A stretch of 64,000 nucleotides of DNA, taken from the IMG/VR virus record IMGVR_UViG_3300009104_000012, positions 1-64,000 of that record; one strand, given 5' to 3'. The DNA is from a virus. The notes under the pieces are model-generated. The model was not told the DNA's origin. It worked only from the letters and a program-made list of their open reading frames with translations, and made no database searches. Made by a program: the position numbers and the translations under genes. Below are positions 25,475 through 34,164 of the stretch, piece by piece (the stretch's first letter is position 1; every line of letters starts with the position of its first letter).

Positions 25475-25900
25475 TTACTTCATCATTTCAATAATCTCGG
25501 AGAAATTTCCTCCCACAATCCATCCTATAACTATTGCTCCACCTAATATAATCCAACGGTATTTCTCCAACATACCAACTCTACCACCTATATCATTTCT
25601 CAATGCTTTAATTTCGGTAAGTAACCGTCTTTCCACACTATCCATTTCATTTCTTAATTGTGTGGATAATTCTTCAATCTGGTCTTGTCGGTCTTTTAAT
25701 TTTGTAAAGATTATTTCATCTACCTTTTCTTGTTGAGATAATTTCTCTTCGTGTACAGCCAGCATAGACTTTATACTACCTGATACTTCGGTAAGTTTAC
25801 CTATTGCTGTGTCTAATCGTTCTTGGATTGATGTTGCAATAACAACATCTTTTTTAAGATTTTCTACATCTATTTTTAAATCTACTATTGGGTCCGCCAT
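25475..25900 (-). CDS. coiled-coil protein with C-terminal membrane anchor
   Basis: Residues 1-110 are a long coiled coil (LKIDVENLKKDVVI, RQDQIEELSTQLRNEMDSVERRL). Residues about 115-133 form a transmembrane helix (WIILGGAIVIGWIVGG). Similar tail-anchored coiled coils occur in T4-like marine phages. It follows the FecR-like gene by one base gap and may be part of the curli transcript. Confidence 0.7.
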   Translation of the reverse strand: MADPIVDLKIDVENLKKDVVIATSIQERLDTAIGKLTEVSGSIKSMLAVHEEKLSQQEKVDEIIFTKLKDRQDQIEELSTQLRNEMDSVERRLLTEIKALRNDIGGRVGMLEKYRWIILGGAIVIGWIVGGNFSEIIEMMK

Positions 25901-25901
25901 A

Positions 25902-28082
25902 TTAATCCGTTTGTATAATAGTTATATTAGGTTGTGTAGAGGATGTCCCTACATCAATATGTTGAGCCTCTTTGTCTTGTAGTATCTGAATATCAGCCTC
26001 TTTACTAGTTTCTACTTCAATATAAGCTCTATGATTATCATTATATCTATTTATGATTGTGTAATCACCTGAAGTTGAGGCAGTTGCGTCAAAGTCATTA
26101 TTCAATGTTGATACTCTTCCTGTTGAAGTGGTACTTGTTGACACACCACCGCTGGTTGTAGTTAAAGTTTGGGTAATATCTCCTGTAGTATAATTTAAAA
26201 CTTCTCCACTAGCAGTTACCAAAGTTTCTGCAACCGTATTGTCAACCCATTCTGTACCACATTTTTGATTTGCATTGTCCCAATAGTATCCATAGTAATC
26301 ACAATACCATTCATCTAATTCTGCCAACCATAATTCTAATTCCAAATCTGCGTCATAATCATCTTCATAACCATACTCCTCATCTAACGAAGTGCTATCG
26401 TCTCCTGAATCTCCATATGTTCCTGTATAATACCAACTATATGTATTGTCATAAAATAAATTCCAATCTTCATAAGTCCACTCACTTACATACTTATCTT
26501 TTAATCCTTCCATCTTCCAAGGTTTAGGTTGTCCATCACACCACTCATAGTTAGGCCAAGAACCACACCAACCATACCATTTTTTAAATAATTTTTTTGC
26601 TTTCTTTTCCCACGAATCAAAGTCTTTAAATAATGACCAATCATCAGCATACCATTCGTTTAAGTAGTCTAGGTATTTTTGATCACACCAAGATGAATCA
26701 TATCCATTATATTCACAATAGTTTGTTATTGTTAATTCAGGTGGACCACCAGCAGCAATGTATTCTGAATTGTTATAGTAGTCATCTGATAAATCAAAAT
26801 CTTCCCAAGTATATCCTTCAGTTGTTGATGTTGCGTCATCAACTACTTCTTCCGTTTTATCTTCTACAACAGCTGCATTGTAAGAAGTTAATCCATAGTC
26901 TTCTAATAATTTGTTGTATTCAGCTTCATATGCGTCCCAATCTACCTCGTCCCAATTTATAGAGTCCCAATTGATAGTATCCCAAGAACAATCTGAACAA
27001 CCAATAGCGTCAAGGTATGCTTGGTCCATTTCTGAATACATTTTTTTCGCCTCGTCCCAATCCATTTTCTGTTCACCTTCGGCATCCCAAACTGATATTT
27101 GGTTCTCTTCATCAATATAACCCCAATCTTTTAAGTCTTCTTCCCACTCATCATAATAAGATGTATCTATTTCTTCATCTATTATTACTTCTTCTATTGC
27201 AATATCTTGGACTACATTTGTTTCTACTTCTATTGTATCAACTGCTAAATCTGTAGTGGTGCTTTCAGTTTTACCTTCTTCTACCGTTAACTCTTCAGAA
27301 ATAATTGCTTCTTCAATCTTTTGTGCCTCTTCACTATCAATTTCAATGTCTTCAAGTTTTGATTCATCCATTTCTATTTCTTGCCAACCAATGTCTTCAT
27401 TTTCCATTGCTAAAGTAGTATATTTTTTCTCATCTTTAATTTCTTTTTCCATATCATCTATCTTCATCAAATCTTTTTGTTCTACTGGAGATAATACTTT
27501 TGGTGGTTTAGGTGCTAAGTCATTTGAAAGTACGGTTACAGATTCATATACTTGATTAAGTGTTTGAGAACCTGCGTCATTAGATACCGTAACCTCACCT
27601 ATATTTCCTGAAGAATCAGGAAGTAATGTAATTGTAGTTTTACCTGAAGTTTCTACCGTACCTGTAAATGCTGTACCTTGTACCGTAATTGAAGCAGTTG
27701 CTGTAGTAATGTTTACTTCACCACCTAATTTAGATATTGTTCCTGATTCATATGTAAATGACCCTACATTGACATTAATGTTCATTGCAATTTCTATTGG
27801 TACAACCGAAGTATCAAAAGCAAATTCATCTATAGTTAATTCTGTATTAGGTCCCATTGTAAACTTGGTGTTATCAACATAAGATAGAATCATACCACCA
27901 TCTTCTCCTGTCTGGAGAAAATCGTTCATCTGTAAAGCATAACCCATTGAGGTTTTTTGGGTCTCTCCGTCTCTTTCGTTCCAAGTGGAACCCATTTGAC
28001 CTACTACCTCTCCTACATTAACTGCAAGAGCACTAGTACAAAATGCCAGGAAAAAGGCAACTAATAAAAATAGTTTCCTCAT
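25902..28082 (-). CDS. exported FecR-domain protein with acidic aromatic tail
   Basis: Start ATG 28082 gives 726 residues with a signal peptide (MRKLFLLVAFFLAFCTSALA). Residues about 25-190 match a FecR domain: VGEVVGQMGSTWNERDG, LQTGEDGGMILSYVDNTKFTMGPNTELTIDEF, and VNITTATASITVQGTAFTG. From about residue 230 the protein is strikingly rich in Asp, Glu, Trp and Tyr. It contains four tandem pentapeptides (WDTIN, WDSIN, WDEVD, WDAYE; residues 367-386) and scattered Cys pairs. FecR domains are sensory or anchor modules in the periplasm. Linked to csgG/csgF, this is probably a secreted or surface component of the curli-like system. Confidence 0.8.
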   Translation of the reverse strand: MRKLFLLVAFFLAFCTSALAVNVGEVVGQMGSTWNERDGETQKTSMGYALQMNDFLQTGEDGGMILSYVDNTKFTMGPNTELTIDEFAFDTSVVPIEIAMNINVNVGSFTYESGTISKLGGEVNITTATASITVQGTAFTGTVETSGKTTITLLPDSSGNIGEVTVSNDAGSQTLNQVYESVTVLSNDLAPKPPKVLSPVEQKDLMKIDDMEKEIKDEKKYTTLAMENEDIGWQEIEMDESKLEDIEIDSEEAQKIEEAIISEELTVEEGKTESTTTDLAVDTIEVETNVVQDIAIEEVIIDEEIDTSYYDEWEEDLKDWGYIDEENQISVWDAEGEQKMDWDEAKKMYSEMDQAYLDAIGCSDCSWDTINWDSINWDEVDWDAYEAEYNKLLEDYGLTSYNAAVVEDKTEEVVDDATSTTEGYTWEDFDLSDDYYNNSEYIAAGGPPELTITNYCEYNGYDSSWCDQKYLDYLNEWYADDWSLFKDFDSWEKKAKKLFKKWYGWCGSWPNYEWCDGQPKPWKMEGLKDKYVSEWTYEDWNLFYDNTYSWYYTGTYGDSGDDSTSLDEEYGYEDDYDADLELELWLAELDEWYCDYYGYYWDNANQKCGTEWVDNTVAETLVTASGEVLNYTTGDITQTLTTTSGGVSTSTTSTGRVSTLNNDFDATASTSGDYTIINRYNDNHRAYIEVETSKEADIQILQDKEAQHIDVGTSSTQPNITIIQTD
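26925..26984. repeat. four tandem 15-bp repeats inside the FecR-like gene
   Basis: The sequence GTCCCA/ATCCCA recurs exactly every 15 bases (26934, 26949, 26964, 26979). It encodes four W-D-x-x-[ND/E] pentapeptides on the minus strand. This is a short in-frame tandem array typical of repeat-expanding surface or amyloid-like proteins. Confidence 0.85.
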
Positions 28083-28083
28083 T

Positions 28084-29169
28084 TTAACACCCACTATTAG
28101 TTAATTGAATAGTTGTATCTTCTGTTTGATTATTTCTGTTATAAGAATAAGTACAAGAATCAGAACCGTCTTGGTCTACTAGTAAAGTAAAGTCATAAAT
28201 TGAATCACCTGATACGGTAAGATTTGCTGTATTACTTCCGTTTAATTGTTTTAATTCAACAACTGCTTCACTTGTATAGATATAAACATATGCTGTATTA
28301 CTTCCACCATTTCCATAATATCTAAACACATTACTATTACCACTAGTTACCGTTTTCATATAATTATTATTACCTCTTTGTACCATTCTAACGTGAGAAC
28401 CTGAAACGTCTGGATGAACATCTAAAATATTTGAGTTGCCTATTACGTCGTGTACTTGGTAGTTGCCTGTACCCCAAGAAGCCATATGTACTTGATTTGA
28501 ATTACCAATTATATAAACATCTATCGTTGCGCCTTCACTTCCTGAAGTATCTGCAAATTGTCCGTGTGAAGCAACCTGTGGACCAATTGCCTTATTGGAG
28601 TTTGTATTCATACCTTCTGATAAAGTAGGGTGTGAATAAAATTCTACATCATTTGAATCACCAGACATAAGAACATATAAGAAATGACCATCACCTCTAC
28701 TATACATCCAAAAATCATTTGAGTCTCCAACTATATCTAAATCAACATTGGTAAGTTTAACATCATCACTTGTAACCGTATCTATTTCTACTATGTTTGA
28801 ACCACCTGTAATATCAATATCATAATAATGTCCTTCAGCACCAACATCATCTAAATCTACTCTTAATATATTAGAATTACCTGTAGCTGTATAATCAAAG
28901 GTCATATCCTCACCCATAAATGATTTATGGTTGCTATCGGTTACTAGATTTGAATTACCTATTTGTTTAATGATAAGAGTTAAGTTGTTACCTCTCATAT
29001 TGAAAGTAGATGAGGTACTTATACCAACTTTATTACCAGAGCCATCTTGCTTGATGTAAATTGATCCGTCTGTGTCTTGATTGTCTTGTTTTATCCAAAC
29101 AGAATTACCTGCCCAACAATTAGTTGTTAGGGTTACCAGAGTCACTAGAATCATTATCAGTTTTTTCAT
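28084..29169 (-). CDS. curlin-repeat-like exported protein (CsgA/CsgB-like)
   Basis: The 361 residues have a signal peptide (MKKLIMILVTLVTLTTNCWAG). The mature part is then built of about a dozen short repeats centred on G-[ND]-S-N followed by a hydrophobic strand: GNSNLV, GNSNIL, GDSNDF, GDSNDV, GNSNQV, GNSNIL, GNSNVF, plus IKQDNQ and IKQDGSGN, which resemble curlin Q/N repeats. This predicts a beta-solenoid that could polymerise like curli amyloid. It overlaps csgG by 49 bases. Confidence 0.8.
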   Translation of the reverse strand: MKKLIMILVTLVTLTTNCWAGNSVWIKQDNQDTDGSIYIKQDGSGNKVGISTSSTFNMRGNNLTLIIKQIGNSNLVTDSNHKSFMGEDMTFDYTATGNSNILRVDLDDVGAEGHYYDIDITGGSNIVEIDTVTSDDVKLTNVDLDIVGDSNDFWMYSRGDGHFLYVLMSGDSNDVEFYSHPTLSEGMNTNSNKAIGPQVASHGQFADTSGSEGATIDVYIIGNSNQVHMASWGTGNYQVHDVIGNSNILDVHPDVSGSHVRMVQRGNNNYMKTVTSGNSNVFRYYGNGGSNTAYVYIYTSEAVVELKQLNGSNTANLTVSGDSIYDFTLLVDQDGSDSCTYSYNRNNQTEDTTIQLTNSGC

Positions 29170-30160
29170 CTTGCTCCTCCTTTTCGTCTGTATCTATTTG
29201 GTTCCATTCTGCTTCGTTAGCTTCTTCTTTTAATTTCTCGTCTGCTATTTCATTTTCTTGTTTAAGTTTCTTTTCTTCAAGGAATTCTTCATAAGTCTTT
29301 TCTTTTTTAGGTCCTGTATCGTGTATATTAAGTTCAATAGCATTCATTTCTACAACTGGTTTATCTTCAACAGCAATCTCTTCTATTGCCAGTTCTTTAT
29401 ATCTCCACAATCCTTTATCAACACCTTCTTTTATTAATTCTACTACACCTTTTTCAATTGCTTTTCTTACTGCAAAGGTAACTGGTTCATTTCTAGCAAC
29501 ACCAGCTTCTACTTCTAATAACATTGTATCAGCGTCAAAGTATTTAAATATATCTGCACCTCTTGATGTAGAAAATATAGTCTTCTCTATTGTAGTTGTT
29601 ATAACTACTTCACCACTTTGTACATTAACCAATCTTAATATAATAGTAACCACATCTTGTCTGTATTGTGCGTGGTTTTGTATACCTAAAATTCTTGCAC
29701 CAACACCACCTGATTTAATATCAGAATCATACCCAACTATACCACCTGTGATATATGCACCAGCAAATAGTAATGCTGGTAAAGGTTCAGCACCTTCTCC
29801 ATCTACTTGTTGTCTTGTAGACCTAATTAATTTTCTTTCTTGTAAGAGACTTGGTAAACTTGCTCTTTCAACAACTCTAAACCATTTGCCATCGCCTGCG
29901 TCTTGTAATGCCTTAATTAATAATTGATAAGACCCTTGCGTTACCGCTGTACTCATTGAAGCAAAGTCTCCACCTGGTTTCTTTTGACCTGTTAAGTCAA
30001 CGAAATCATAAACAGCAATGACTATTGGGTCGCCTTCTAGTTGCTCAACTTTTTCTAAATCTTTATAAGCAACATCAGCTATTCTTACATCAAAGTCTGG
30101 TTTGCCAGCACAACTAACTAATAATAAAGTTAGTAAAAATATTCCTATGTACTTAAACAT
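29120..30160 (-). CDS. csgG: CsgG, curli secretion pore lipoprotein
   Basis: This 346-residue lipoprotein (lipobox LLLVSC, Cys17) has the CsgG core: VIAVYDFVDLTGQ, GSYQLLIKALQDAGDGKWFRVVERASLPSLLQERKLIR, GAYITGGIVGYDSDIKSGGVGARILGI, and VVTIILRLVNVQSGEVV. CsgG forms a nonameric outer-membrane channel that exports unfolded curlin. An extra Lys/Glu-rich tail of about 70 residues follows the usual end. Its ATG overlaps the csgF stop (TAATG), so the two are coupled. Confidence 0.93.
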   Translation of the reverse strand: MFKYIGIFLLTLLLVSCAGKPDFDVRIADVAYKDLEKVEQLEGDPIVIAVYDFVDLTGQKKPGGDFASMSTAVTQGSYQLLIKALQDAGDGKWFRVVERASLPSLLQERKLIRSTRQQVDGEGAEPLPALLFAGAYITGGIVGYDSDIKSGGVGARILGIQNHAQYRQDVVTIILRLVNVQSGEVVITTTIEKTIFSTSRGADIFKYFDADTMLLEVEAGVARNEPVTFAVRKAIEKGVVELIKEGVDKGLWRYKELAIEEIAVEDKPVVEMNAIELNIHDTGPKKEKTYEEFLEEKKLKQENEIADEKLKEEANEAEWNQIDTDEKEEQDEKTDNDSSDSGNPNN

Positions 30161-30636
30161 TACGAATTGTCTTCCTTCGGCATAGTAAATGTTGTTACCG
30201 TACCATCTGATTCTGTAACCGTTACCGTAACCGTATCATTTGTTCCTGTAGTTGTTGTTGCCCAAGTTACCACTTCACCACCTACTGGTGATGTAAATGT
30301 TCCAGAATCTTGTTGTAATCCATCTGTACCAAATACGTTATCAGTAATTTGTTTAGCAAGAGCTGTGTAAAATCTTGCTTCTAAATTTGCTTTGAATTTT
30401 GCTATAGCTGTTGCTTTAGCTTCTGCTTTTGCTTTTTCAGCGTCAGCTTTTTCAGCAGCTTTAATTGCGTCTTTTCTAGTCTTCTCTATATTCTCTATAG
30501 TTAAATAGTGTGATGATTTACCAACTCCTGAAAATGATGGACTATGGAATTTAAAATCTAATTCACTAGCGTTTACGCTACCATTATATAAAACAAAACC
30601 TACTAAAACTGACAGAAAAATGGCGATTCTGATCAT
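30160..30636 (-). CDS. csgF: CsgF, curli assembly factor
   Basis: The 158 residues have a signal peptide (MIRIAIFLSVLVGFVLYNGSVNA). ELDFKFHSPSFSG follows, matching the N-terminal segment of CsgF that inserts into the CsgG pore. An unusual Lys/Ala/Glu-rich helix sits where the E. coli protein has a shorter linker, followed by FYTALAKQITDNVFG and a beta-rich TVTVTVTESDGTVTTFTMP tail. It is first in the csgF-csgG-curlin-FecR operon and has a strong AGAGGAGATATA ribosome binding site. Confidence 0.85.
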   Translation of the reverse strand: MIRIAIFLSVLVGFVLYNGSVNASELDFKFHSPSFSGVGKSSHYLTIENIEKTRKDAIKAAEKADAEKAKAEAKATAIAKFKANLEARFYTALAKQITDNVFGTDGLQQDSGTFTSPVGGEVVTWATTTTGTNDTVTVTVTESDGTVTTFTMPKEDNS

Positions 30637-30660
30637 TATATCTCCTCTAATTTACTCCTA

Positions 30661-30668
30661 TATTTATA
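30661..30668 (-). promoter_or_regulatory. T4-like late promoter upstream of csgF
   Basis: TATAAATA on the minus strand matches the T4 late -10 element exactly. It lies about 25 bases before the csgF start, inside the 56-bp divergent region shared with the cyclase gene. It places the curli operon in late transcription. Confidence 0.7.
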
Positions 30669-30692
30669 AACTTTGACAACTAAATATTGTAA

Positions 30693-32324
30693 ATGATTGC
30701 TATTATTAAAAAAGTAGGCTGGGCTTGGTTAACTATTGCTGTACTTCTATTTTTATATTTAGGAAATCCTACGTTAATGGAGACATCAAGACTTTCCACG
30801 TTTGATTCTTACCAAAAAATAGGTAAGCACTATGATTCCAAAAGCCTAATATTGCTGGATATTTCAGACGCAGCCTTGGAAAAGCAAGGTCAATGGCCTT
30901 GGAAAAGGGACCAATTAGGTCGTGTAGTGGTCAATGCATATAAAAATGGAGCTGCTCTTGTAGTTATGCAAGTAGTCTTCCCACATAAAGATAGATTAGG
31001 TGGTGATGAAATGTTCCTTAAAATGATTACAAAATATCCTGTAATATTAACCGAAACAAATGAAGTTAAAAATCTACAAAGTATTTCCAGAAAATCTTTA
31101 GGTGTAGGTAATGTAGATGTACCTGTAGATATAGACGGTACTATAAGAAAATTACCTGTAAATAATTCCATACCCCAGGTTATATTAAAAGTTATAAACT
31201 TTCCAAAAATAGAACAAGATAATATATGGGTAGATTTTAGATACCATATTCCTAGAATAGATTATACTGATAATGATTGGTCAGGTATGAAAGGTAAAAT
31301 AGTATTCATTGGTACCACATTTAAAGGTTCAACTTTTGTAACCACACCTAATGGATTAAAAAACACTCACGAAATTATGGCAATCAGTACAGAAAATTTA
31401 CTATCAGGAAAATTTATTGATAGACCTGATTGGTTACCTTACGCTGAAGGTGTTTTTATTTTACTTGCTTTATTATTTTTTGTACTAGTTATTCCTAGAT
31501 GTGGTGTAATGTGGTCTTTTCTATGGTATGCTGGATTTATATTTGATATTTTTCTTGGTGCTGGATTTCTATGGTGGAAATACCAATACATAGCTGATTG
31601 GTTTAGTCCTCTATTACTAGGGTCTATACTATGGGCTCACTTAACATATAATAATTATTCAATAGAAAATAAATTAAGACTACAAATTAAAAAACAATTT
31701 GAACATTACTTGGCACCTGCAATGGTACAAAGACTAATGGATAATCCATCACTATTAAAATTAGGTGGTGAAAGAAGAAAATTAACATTTCTATTTTCAG
31801 ACATAAGAGGTTTCACTCCTATATCGGAGAAATTTAAAAATTCTCCTGAAAGACTAACTCGTTATGTTAATAGATTTTTAACTGCAATGACAACCATTAT
31901 ATTACAACACGGTGGTACTATTGATAAGTATATGGGTGATTGTATTATGGCCTTCTGGAACGCACCCCTAGATGTTAAGGAACACAGGAAACTGGCTGTT
32001 CAATGTGCTATAGCAATGAGAAGAAAACTTAAATTAATGAACATAAACAAAGAGTTTATGCCACCTATCAACATTGGTATTGGTATTAATACTGGTGAAT
32101 GTCTTGTTGGAAATATGGGGTCTAAACAAAGATTTGATTATTCAGTTATAGGTGACGCTGTAAATCTAGCAAGTAGATTGGAAGGTGTTAGTAAAAATTA
32201 CAACACCACTATTATAATCGGTGAAGATACTAGGGAGGCTTTAGAAGGTTTTAAATTCTATAAACTTGATGATGTAAAAGTCAAAGGCAAAACTGAAAAG
32301 ATTACCATTTATTCTGTTAGATAA
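30693..32324 (+). CDS. CHASE2-domain class III nucleotide cyclase
   Basis: This is the only plus-strand gene. The protein (543 residues) has an N-terminal membrane anchor and a periplasmic CHASE2 sensor (about 35-245: IGKHYDSKSLILLDISDAALEKQGQWPWKRDQLG, VFIGTTFKGSTFVTTPNG). Three transmembrane helices follow at about 248-315, then a class III cyclase domain at 355-540. Catalytic elements are complete: FSDIRGFT (369-376), KYMGD (412-416, second metal Asp), and GDAVNLASR (487-495, transition-state Asn and Arg). The substrate-pocket Lys suggests ATP, so cAMP is the likely product. It is divergent from csgF. No clear ribosome binding site precedes the ATG. Confidence 0.92.
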   Translation: MIAIIKKVGWAWLTIAVLLFLYLGNPTLMETSRLSTFDSYQKIGKHYDSKSLILLDISDAALEKQGQWPWKRDQLGRVVVNAYKNGAALVVMQVVFPHKDRLGGDEMFLKMITKYPVILTETNEVKNLQSISRKSLGVGNVDVPVDIDGTIRKLPVNNSIPQVILKVINFPKIEQDNIWVDFRYHIPRIDYTDNDWSGMKGKIVFIGTTFKGSTFVTTPNGLKNTHEIMAISTENLLSGKFIDRPDWLPYAEGVFILLALLFFVLVIPRCGVMWSFLWYAGFIFDIFLGAGFLWWKYQYIADWFSPLLLGSILWAHLTYNNYSIENKLRLQIKKQFEHYLAPAMVQRLMDNPSLLKLGGERRKLTFLFSDIRGFTPISEKFKNSPERLTRYVNRFLTAMTTIILQHGGTIDKYMGDCIMAFWNAPLDVKEHRKLAVQCAIAMRRKLKLMNINKEFMPPINIGIGINTGECLVGNMGSKQRFDYSVIGDAVNLASRLEGVSKNYNTTIIIGEDTREALEGFKFYKLDDVKVKGKTEKITIYSVR

Positions 32325-32564
32325 TTATCCTTTTATCTTTTTAGTTATCCAAAGTACAGCTGCATACATTATTAAAGCATAAACGGAAACAAATAAAATT
32401 TCTGGAATATATTGAAATACATTGTAGGTTAAATCTAATACTGCTTCAACATCTCCCATTTCAGAAGATCCGTCTTCATCCATATCAATGGTTATAGATT
32501 TGGTAAAATCTCCTTCTACATTACCAACATTTTGTTCTATGTCTAATGTATTGTCTTCGTTCAT
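32325..32564 (-). CDS. 79-residue membrane protein
   Basis: The N-terminal half is acidic (DIEQNVGNVEGDFTKSITIDMDEDG). The C-terminal half has one or two transmembrane spans (EILFVSVYALIMYAAVLWI). It is convergent with, and directly abuts, the cyclase gene. No family is recognised. Confidence 0.6.
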   Translation of the reverse strand: MNEDNTLDIEQNVGNVEGDFTKSITIDMDEDGSSEMGDVEAVLDLTYNVFQYIPEILFVSVYALIMYAAVLWITKKIKG

Positions 32565-32728
32565 TTTCTATCTGATAACTTATTAATAAGGTCAAACGCA
32601 ACTTTTACTTTTTCTTTAAGCACGATTATATCTCCGTGCATTTTTGCTAGGACAATTACCAAAGTTATAAACCCTAAAAATAAGGGCCACATCTTCATTA
32701 ACATTGTCATTACTTCTAACGATTCCAT
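32561..32728 (-). CDS. 55-residue membrane miniprotein
   Basis: A strong AGGAGATT ribosome binding site precedes the ATG at 32728. The frame encodes a transmembrane helix (WPLFLGFITLVIVLA) followed by an amphipathic cytoplasmic tail. Its TGA overlaps the next start as ATGA. Coding is therefore well supported. Confidence 0.75.
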   Translation of the reverse strand: MESLEVMTMLMKMWPLFLGFITLVIVLAKMHGDIIVLKEKVKVAFDLINKLSDRK

Positions 32729-32741
32729 AATCTCCTTTTGG

Positions 32742-32867
32742 TTATTGTATTATTTTATGATCGGGTCTTTCTTTTTCGCAAGCCGAGCAATCACATTTTT
32801 TACAATCGCAATTTGAGCAAGTCTCTGGACAATGTGCTTCACATTTACAATTTCTACAATCTTCCAT
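32742..32867 (-). CDS. Cys-rich metallothionein-like miniprotein
   Basis: An AAGGAGAAAAT ribosome binding site is perfectly spaced before the ATG at 32867. The 41-residue product has ten Cys at positions 4, 7, 9, 13, 17, 20, 22, 25, 27 and 30, plus His12, in repeating C-x2-C-x-C spacing. This is the pattern of metallothioneins or small metal-cluster scaffolds. It lies in a different frame inside the 3' half of the membrane ORF 32750-32971, so both cannot be equally constrained. The regular Cys spacing and the ribosome binding site argue that this frame is translated. Confidence 0.7.
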   Translation of the reverse strand: MEDCRNCKCEAHCPETCSNCDCKKCDCSACEKERPDHKIIQ

Positions 32868-32971
32868 ATTTTCTCCTTAATTTCTTTTCTAAATGCTATA
32901 GCACCGCCAGTAAGTAAAATGAATAGTATTAAATATCCCATTGTTGGTCCGTTATCTATGTATTCAATCAC
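32750..32971 (-). CDS. membrane miniprotein overlapping the Cys-rich gene
   Basis: A GTG start overlaps the formate dehydrogenase stop (GTGA), and an ATG lies at 32941. The first half is a transmembrane helix (MGYLILFILLTGGAIAF) followed by a basic tail. The second half is read in another frame from the Cys-rich gene. The first 35 residues look real; the tail may be a by-product of the overlapping frame. Confidence 0.5.
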   Translation of the reverse strand: MIEYIDNGPTMGYLILFILLTGGAIAFRKEIKEKIWKIVEIVNVKHIVQRLAQIAIVKNVIARLAKKKDPIIK

Positions 32972-34164
32972 TTCTTAAACTTGGCAGCTTCTTCTGAACC
33001 TTTTGTAGCACTACCTTTACTATAACTATGTGCTCCCATTCCAGCAAGTTCACCATCTTTTACAATATAATATTTATCTCTTATGTCAGTCTTATCAAAG
33101 AAACATTCCAATATTTCTCTAACACCAGCAGCATATCTATATTGTGCTGATAGAGAAGTTCCACTTGTATGTGGTGTCATACCGTGGTTTGGCATTGTTC
33201 TCCAAACGTGGTCATTTGGTGCTGGTTGTGGAAACCAAACATCACCTGCGTAACCACTTAATTGACCTGACTCTAATGCTCTTGCGATAGCGTCTCTATC
33301 ACAAATCTTTCCTCTAGCAGTATTAACTATATATGCTCCAGGTTTACATTTACCAATTAGTTCATCATTAAATAAATGTTCCGTTTCTGGATGTAAAGGA
33401 CAACTTATATTAATTACATCACATACACTAACTAATGACTCTACTGAATCGTGGAAAGTTAAGTTTAATTCTTTTTCTTTTTCTTCTGGCAATCTATGTC
33501 TATCAAAGTAATGTAAGTGTACATCAAATGGTGCCATCTTTCTTAACATATCATAACCAATACGACCAGCTGCAATTGTTCCTATGTGCATACCTTCTAC
33601 ATCATAAGATCGTTTAACTGCGTCAGCAATATGCCAACCACCTTCGTTAACTATTCTATGTTGATTGTGGTAATCTCTTACTAAAGATAAAATCATCATA
33701 ACTATATGTTCAGCAACTGACCGTGAATTACAATAAGTTACCTCAACTACATCTACTTTATTATCCATCGCAGCTTGTAAATCTACGTGGTCTGAACCAA
33801 TACCTGCTGTGATTGCCATTTTTAAATTTGGTGCTGATTCCATTTTTTCTCTTGTTAAATAATAAGGCCAAAATGGTTGTGATATAACCACATCAGCGTC
33901 AACTAATTCTTTATCTGCTTGACAACCTTCTCCGTCTTTATCAGACGTAACAACTAATGTATGTCCATTGTCTTCTAAAAATTTTCTCAATCCCAATTCA
34001 CCTGATACACAACCTAATAATTCTCCAGGTGTAAAGTCAATTGCTTTGGGTGTTGGTAGTGTCATACCATCTGGATACTTTTCTAATTTAGGTAAGTCTT
34101 TGACAGGATATGATTTTGGCATACCGTCTTTGGGGTCATCATATAATATACATAATATTTTCAT
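32968..34164 (-). CDS. NAD-dependent formate dehydrogenase
   Basis: This 398-residue enzyme oxidises formate to CO2 with reduction of NAD+. It matches metal-free bacterial FDH (Pseudomonas sp. 101 type) position for position. Pro97 lies in QPFWP, Ile122 in AGIGSDHVDL and Asn146 in YCNS. The Rossmann loop is GTIAAGRIG, with Asp221 in DRHR giving NAD preference. Further matches are Arg284 in NTARGK, Asp308 and Gln313 in GDVWFPQPAP, and His332/Ser334 in PHTSGT. The C-terminal AHSYSKG is also present. No truncation or missing catalytic residue is seen. As a phage auxiliary gene it could supply NADH from formate, a C1 compound used by marine heterotrophs such as SAR11. Confidence 0.95.
   Translation of the reverse strand: MKILCILYDDPKDGMPKSYPVKDLPKLEKYPDGMTLPTPKAIDFTPGELLGCVSGELGLRKFLEDNGHTLVVTSDKDGEGCQADKELVDADVVISQPFWPYYLTREKMESAPNLKMAITAGIGSDHVDLQAAMDNKVDVVEVTYCNSRSVAEHIVMMILSLVRDYHNQHRIVNEGGWHIADAVKRSYDVEGMHIGTIAAGRIGYDMLRKMAPFDVHLHYFDRHRLPEEKEKELNLTFHDSVESLVSVCDVINISCPLHPETEHLFNDELIGKCKPGAYIVNTARGKICDRDAIARALESGQLSGYAGDVWFPQPAPNDHVWRTMPNHGMTPHTSGTSLSAQYRYAAGVREILECFFDKTDIRDKYYIVKDGELAGMGAHSYSKGSATKGSEEAAKFKK

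Follow-up and report, generated by a model that had tools for sequence, protein, structure and literature searches.

Curli-type genes in pelagimyophages have been in the literature since 2020, when Zaragoza-Solas et al. (2020; PMC7029224) described csgF/csgG operons in these phages and proposed sibling capture; the first-pass annotation of the DNA studied here was right in stating that such genes had been noted. Of two reports from 2022, one described podo- and myophages that carry the whole set, comprising curlin, FecR, an adenylate cyclase and a histidine kinase, interpreted FecR as an iron-dependent regulator and reported phage curli modules at all 65 GOV2.0 stations (PMC9599517), while the other dealt with the pore genes of phage Melnitz and proposed a pinholin or a secretin (PMC9004378). 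Although the latter report calls csgA/csgB absent, two curlin-repeat genes are annotated in the Melnitz record, alongside FecR and a cyclase. Here, we analyze a module of this kind on positions 1 to 64,000 of the IMG/VR virus record IMGVR_UViG_3300009104_000012, a stretch of 64,000 nucleotides termed the window in the following. The record is a 73.9-kb viral contig that has matches in Pelagibacter phage HTVC008M for its nrdA, primase, uvsX, gp41, gp43, gp44 and regA genes, which makes this marine phage a relative of the T4-like pelagimyophages. Since the basic module has been published before, it is not new here. What is new is a reading in which a late-expressed curli-type (type VIII) export module would possess its own sensing arm, with the state of the fiber or of export setting the activity of the cyclase; we give this reading roughly an even chance.

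Four minus-strand genes, csgF, csgG, a curlin-like gene and a FecR-domain gene, overlap or abut, and their grouping behind a T4-like late promoter, as noted in the first-pass annotation, was confirmed. A cyclase gene on the plus strand begins 57 bases from the csgF start codon and lies outside the interval 25475-30668 to which attention had originally been drawn. Purifying selection acts on every module gene, with median ratios of nonsynonymous to synonymous substitution rates (dN/dS) of 0.21-0.35. The features are as follows:

30160-30636, minus strand: csgF, outer-membrane adaptor with signal peptide (Pfam CsgF PF10614, E 7.6e-10)
29120-30160, minus strand: csgG, outer-membrane lipoprotein pore subunit (Pfam CsgG PF03783, E 2.2e-49)
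29123-29386, minus strand: acidic/lysine-rich C-terminal extension of csgG with a conserved EKTYE[DE]YLxEK-like motif
28084-29169, minus strand: curlin-family repeat gene, putative fiber subunit (family profile and AlphaFold)
25902-28094, minus strand: FecR-domain gene with GTG start and N-terminal signal peptide (Pfam PF04773, E 2e-4)
27627-27917, minus strand: FecR domain of the CHASE2-partner class (Pfam, class hidden Markov models, tree)
25905-25994, minus strand: terminal curlin-like repeat of the FecR protein (DIQILQ...NITIIQTD, Q-Q spacing 22)
30693-32324, plus strand: divergent CHASE2 adenylate cyclase gene (Pfam PF05226, E 3e-26; PF00211, E 7e-25)
30741-31478, plus strand: CHASE2 domain of the cyclase gene
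31779-32312, plus strand: class III adenylate cyclase domain of the cyclase gene
30661-30668, minus strand: T4-type late promoter TATAAATA of csgF (motif count and conservation in relatives)
30679-30686, plus strand: late-promoter-like ACTAAATA, 14 nt before the cyclase ATG

FecR and the CHASE2 cyclase

The phage FecR domain has the same fold as its counterpart in ferric-citrate signaling by FecI-FecR-FecA, and its fold matches are the PupR signaling domain and BDI_1681. Unlike FecR of that system, however, the phage protein carries a signal peptide, lacks the N-terminal anti-sigma part and has no sigma gene as a neighbor. FecR proteins have also been linked with CHASE2 enzymes. In Campylobacterota, FecR outer-membrane proteins cluster with CHASE2 cyclases (PMC9239204), and a Burkholderia biofilm operon combines a LysM-FecR protein with a CHASE2 kinase (PMC5192318); for Sinorhizobium meliloti, two reports have the outer-membrane protein NsrA signaling to CHASE2 cyclases (PMC7529298, PMC13001267), its partners being CyaK and CyaD. 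In 24 curli-bearing, mostly alphaproteobacterial genomes, we found a FecR domain within 8 kb of 28 of the 48 CHASE2 domains, a proximity that chance would produce in about 1%. Bacterial FecRs not beside CHASE2 are built in the classical way: the domain lies some 90-140 residues into the protein, and a signal peptide is not apparent. When the phage FecRs were scored with hidden Markov models of both classes, they reached 47-79 bits for the CHASE2-adjacent and 3-12 bits for the other, FecI-type class, and in a tree of 62 FecR domains they lie inside the CHASE2-adjacent class, on the opposite side from the FecI type, the split having moderate support (72/90) from few columns. As far as sequence can tell, the phage protein is thus a CHASE2-partner FecR, a secreted domain encoded beside a CHASE2 enzyme and falling within that clade. 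A role as an iron/anti-sigma regulator was rejected on account of the signal peptide, which stands in place of a cytoplasmic anti-sigma part, and of the position outside the FecI-linked class.

The enzyme itself had been missed in the first-pass annotation, which treated FecR as a bystander, and its presence next to csgF changes the reading of the locus. The gene product is predicted to be a CHASE2 class III adenylate cyclase, as it combines both domains with the catalytic residues (two metal Asp, purine-binding Lys and Asp, Asn, Arg), which are intact in 14 of 15 aligned copies. The exception is the Melnitz cyclase (L074), in which two catalytic positions deviate (S for Asp482 and Asn491); it retains the C-terminal DWNGVFxATTK tail of bacterial CHASE2 cyclases. 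Wherever the contig allows a statement, a cyclase gene adjoins the module, either divergently upstream of csgF, as in the window, or co-directionally after fecR, and because it stays adjacent through this rearrangement, a functional link to the module is suggested. Some relatives have a second CHASE2 cyclase gene after fecR on the opposite strand, giving two per phage (L046:14361-16286, and near 14503 in L045 and L048). In L004 (5260-7397), fecR occupies two overlapping reading frames of 509 and 222 aa, reflecting a frameshift or a sequencing error.

The nearest bacterial relatives of the two proteins share loci. For FecR they are found at L218, L219, L209 and L227 (L209 and L251 represent the same gene) and for the cyclase at L218, L219, L227, L249, L250 and L251, such that L218, L219, L227 and L251 are common to both, and FecR and cyclase were therefore probably taken up together. 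The operon at the Afipia locus L249 comprises a 1502-aa FecR-cadherin/Ig adhesin, a type I ABC exporter, an HlyD protein and the CHASE2 cyclase; to judge from the gene content, FecR and CHASE2 go together here with a surface protein that is secreted and has its own exporter. Among the other bacterial FecR partners are a FecR-cadherin-VWA protein (L227) and a 1213-aa FecR-TPR protein (L235). The bacterial pairs resemble the phage pair in that a secreted FecR-domain protein adjoins a CHASE2 enzyme, and the phage proteins nest in this class. In contrast to the phage protein, the bacterial partners carry TPR plus barrel-like, cadherin/Ig or glycine-rich parts, none has a curlin tail, and none of the pairs was found at the curli loci examined.

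The tail of the phage FecR appears from several comparisons to be a single curlin-like repeat related to phage CsgB. In all 46 complete phage copies, which have 29 distinct tails among them, the C-terminus is a strand I-x-I-x-Q plus 0-3 residues, and in the window clade a matching strand mostly lies 22 residues upstream of the terminal one, which equals the curlin period. Among 178 proteins of the window and HTVC008M, such an ending occurs only in the two FecRs and CsgB; elsewhere it was seen in 32 of 190 bacterial curlins and in 8 of 2099 other bacterial open reading frames. The only other significant phage match of a FecR-tail profile was HTVC008M CsgB (E 6.6e-6), and hhalign of FecR tails against phage CsgB tails gave a score of 29.7 (85%) that was reached by none of 150 column shuffles (maximum 15.8). 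The AlphaFold model of FecR places strands at residues 700-706, 709-715 and 723-728 of the tail, with pLDDT values of about 80.

Export apparatus and late promoters

Full-length CsgG and CsgF with the correct signals, as stated in the first-pass annotation, were borne out. CsgG matched E. coli CsgG structures in the PDB (E 8e-45), and the lipobox Cys17 is invariant in 16 aligned copies, so that the pore domain and lipoprotein signal of type VIII secretion (curli) are both present. CsgF has its signal peptide and an N-terminal FxFxSPSFSG segment that is conserved in an alignment of 14 phage copies and, with the Pfam match, marks it as a CsgF adaptor; a profile of phage CsgF found no match to CsgF chains in the PDB. 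Loss of pore residues had been named beforehand as an observation that would speak against a working channel. The phage constriction loop, QKKPGGNFASMSTAVTQ, indeed differs from Y51/N55/F56, the constriction residues of E. coli CsgG. However, its length and pattern are the same as in non-enteric bacterial CsgG (QAKPNDSFAEYSRAVTQ), and for this reason the predicted pore is of the alphaproteobacterial kind and has not been lost.

The curlin-like protein of the window on its own yields a Curlin_rpt match with an E value of only 0.79, whereas at the level of the family 14 of 25 members match (best 4.5e-7) and the sole PDB match of the family profile is the E. coli CsgA structure 8enq (E 6e-5), so a curlin-repeat subunit of type VIII secretion is identified at family level. 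Its AlphaFold model is a regular beta-arcade (pTM 0.75), for which Foldseek returned nothing below E 0.039 and generic beta-helices only. A search for the CsgE gate (PF10627), which is not universal in curli systems, gave no match in the 74-kb record, which is possibly a fragment. The cassette had been called complete, a loose term given that no CsgE turned up in this record; a further gene of the module, the CHASE2 cyclase, lies beyond the interval given. It is a guess that the charged CsgG tail of the window clade with its EKTYEDYL-like motif might stand in for the missing CsgE.

In the window, TATAAATA occurs seven times on the minus strand and not at all on the plus strand, compared with a mean of 18 over both strands in shuffled sequences. 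Of 39 distinct relatives, 31 have it upstream of csgF, mostly at -26 to -32, whereas the background rate is 0.015 per 130 nt; we conclude that csgF has a T4-type late promoter. Near the cyclase ATG, a late-promoter-like NTAAATA is found at the same position in most relatives and in both gene arrangements, and [AT]CTAAATA lies at -12 to -18 of this ATG in 19 of 32 distinct copies. The geometry of T4 late promoters would place the mRNA start at or near the cyclase ATG here and, since the element is so close to the start codon, the cyclase mRNA is predicted to be leaderless. Full-length CsgG and CsgF, a curlin-family subunit, purifying selection and the conserved T4-type late promoter together make late export of a curli-type protein plausible.

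The module in other phages and in bacteria

A search for the gene order in other phages, as the first-pass annotation had recommended, showed that csgF-csgG-curlin-fecR is constant in 71 viral loci as well as in HTVC008M and Melnitz. The type VIII secretion modules of the latter two share with the window the genes and their order, FecR with the same end motif and a CHASE2-type cyclase. The window clade differs from them by having one curlin gene instead of two, a FecR of 730 rather than about 370 aa, the charged C-terminal extension that CsgG of HTVC008M and Melnitz lacks, and a divergent cyclase gene with its own promoter-like element.

Alphaproteobacterial curli operons are similar in that csgF-csgG is preceded or followed by curlin-repeat genes; their curlins, unlike those of the phages, have many textbook repeats. 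In about 70 true bacterial curli loci, covered over 10 kb or to the contig end, we detected neither a FecR match nor a full CHASE2 cyclase, bearing in mind that the phage-trained FecR model may miss remote FecRs; one weak, cut CHASE2 match lies at the far edge of locus L154. Curli genes together with FecR/CHASE2 and a phage-like csgF were found on contigs L075, L077, L086 and L117 in bins of metagenome-assembled genomes (MAGs), and L080 and L103 end before a cyclase would be reached. Inheritance of a ready-made bacterial curli-FecR-cyclase cassette was rejected for the loci sampled, because true alphaproteobacterial curli loci are devoid of FecR and CHASE2 cyclase and the carriers are phage-like MAG contigs. 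Phage-like curli contigs in bacterial MAGs comprise L075, L077, L080, L081, L086, L103, L106, L117 and L122, from bins assigned to Rhodobacteraceae, Flavobacteriaceae, Pelagibacter, Synechococcus, Pirellulales and Sphingobacteriales, and would mislead curli surveys there. A CsgG-like protein with 39% identity is encoded on OR851715.1 (1.5 kb, Salmonella phage S.Kent 1-2-1), possibly host DNA.

The interval 25475-30668, originally described as a four-gene cassette, also holds an unnamed gene downstream of fecR:

25475-25900, minus strand: DUF7201 gene, coiled-coil and transmembrane

Its membership in the module is doubtful given its place beside primase in relatives. On the other side, beyond the cyclase, a full-length NAD-dependent formate dehydrogenase is encoded at 32968-34164 on the minus strand (NCBIfam PRK07574, E 1e-197), adjoined by three short membrane-protein genes (32325-32971).

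Possible function of the module

In the sensing-arm reading, Sec would export FecR, curlin, CsgF and CsgG, and CsgG and CsgF would form an outer-membrane pore through which the curlin-family protein would leave as a beta-solenoid fiber. In the periplasm, the N-terminal FecR domain of the secreted protein would meet the CHASE2 domain of the adenylate cyclase, an inner-membrane enzyme, and the C-terminal curlin-like repeat of FecR would dock on the fiber (curlin) or the pore, or be itself exported, so that the state of fiber or export would act on cyclase activity and thus on cyclic AMP (cAMP). The benefit would most likely consist in shaping the contact of infected cells with their neighbors. 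More tentatively, and with a probability that we place somewhat below one half, the curlin repeat may replace the surface part of FecR, whereby the phage fiber or CsgG export would be read into cAMP by the phage cyclase; the FecR-CHASE2 pair and the curli genes, separate in the bacteria examined, would then have come together in phages.

Several observations speak against a sensing arm. No clumping was seen in Melnitz cultures (PMC9004378), and the host-cell aggregation envisaged in the first-pass annotation is likewise not supported; nor did support emerge for its ideas of an amyloid-like product, of progeny trapped near hosts or of an outer membrane perforated to help lysis. The relation of the FecR tail to bacterial curlin tails is not significant (hhalign 2.9%), and that to phage CsgB tails drops to 39% with the window clade alone. 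A reader for cAMP also appears to be missing. In the probable host family (SAR11), domains binding cyclic nucleotide monophosphates (cNMP) are rare: of 118 genomes from the family that includes the genome of L080, a Candidatus Pelagibacter MAG, only 5 have them. Searches of HTVC008M, Melnitz and the other virus records yielded no cNMP-binding protein either. Signaling through a host CRP and through a phage-encoded cAMP receptor were both rejected on these grounds. Class III cyclases are present in three of the 118 genomes, in two cases on contigs also carrying CsgG, which itself occurs in three.

The published proposals (PMC7029224, PMC9599517) have the fibers serving aggregation (sibling capture) or keeping other phages out, while expression would be regulated by FecR (iron) and the cyclase (cAMP). 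The confirmed curlin family and the late promoter would fit, but FecR is without an anti-sigma half and does not belong to the FecI-linked class, csgF is preceded by a T4-type late promoter and not by a host regulator, and both the scarcity of cNMP-binding proteins in the host family and the unclumped Melnitz cultures are at odds with this idea, which we regard as unlikely. The curlin-like tail can also be taken to mean that FecR is a second fiber-borne surface protein exported by CsgG while the cyclase acts independently on host metabolism, and several bacterial partner FecRs are indeed giant adhesins; yet the nearest relatives of FecR and cyclase reside at the same bacterial loci and the cyclase remains adjacent after rearrangement, which makes separate roles quite improbable. 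Finally, CsgG-CsgF could act like a pinholin or secretin, as a pore that sets the time of lysis or makes the outer membrane leaky (PMC9004378), with accessory roles for the other genes. The lack of a detectable CsgE gate in the 74-kb record and the late promoter agree with such a pore, but curlin, FecR and cyclase, superfluous for this purpose, are kept in fixed order under similar purifying selection, and we give it little credence.

Among phages of the most abundant bacteria in the sea, curli modules have a wide distribution. Their analysis exposes the puzzle of a phage cyclase in hosts that seemingly are without cAMP receptors. If FecR is truly a CHASE2 partner with a curlin tail, the retention of both FecR and the cyclase alongside the fiber genes would be accounted for.

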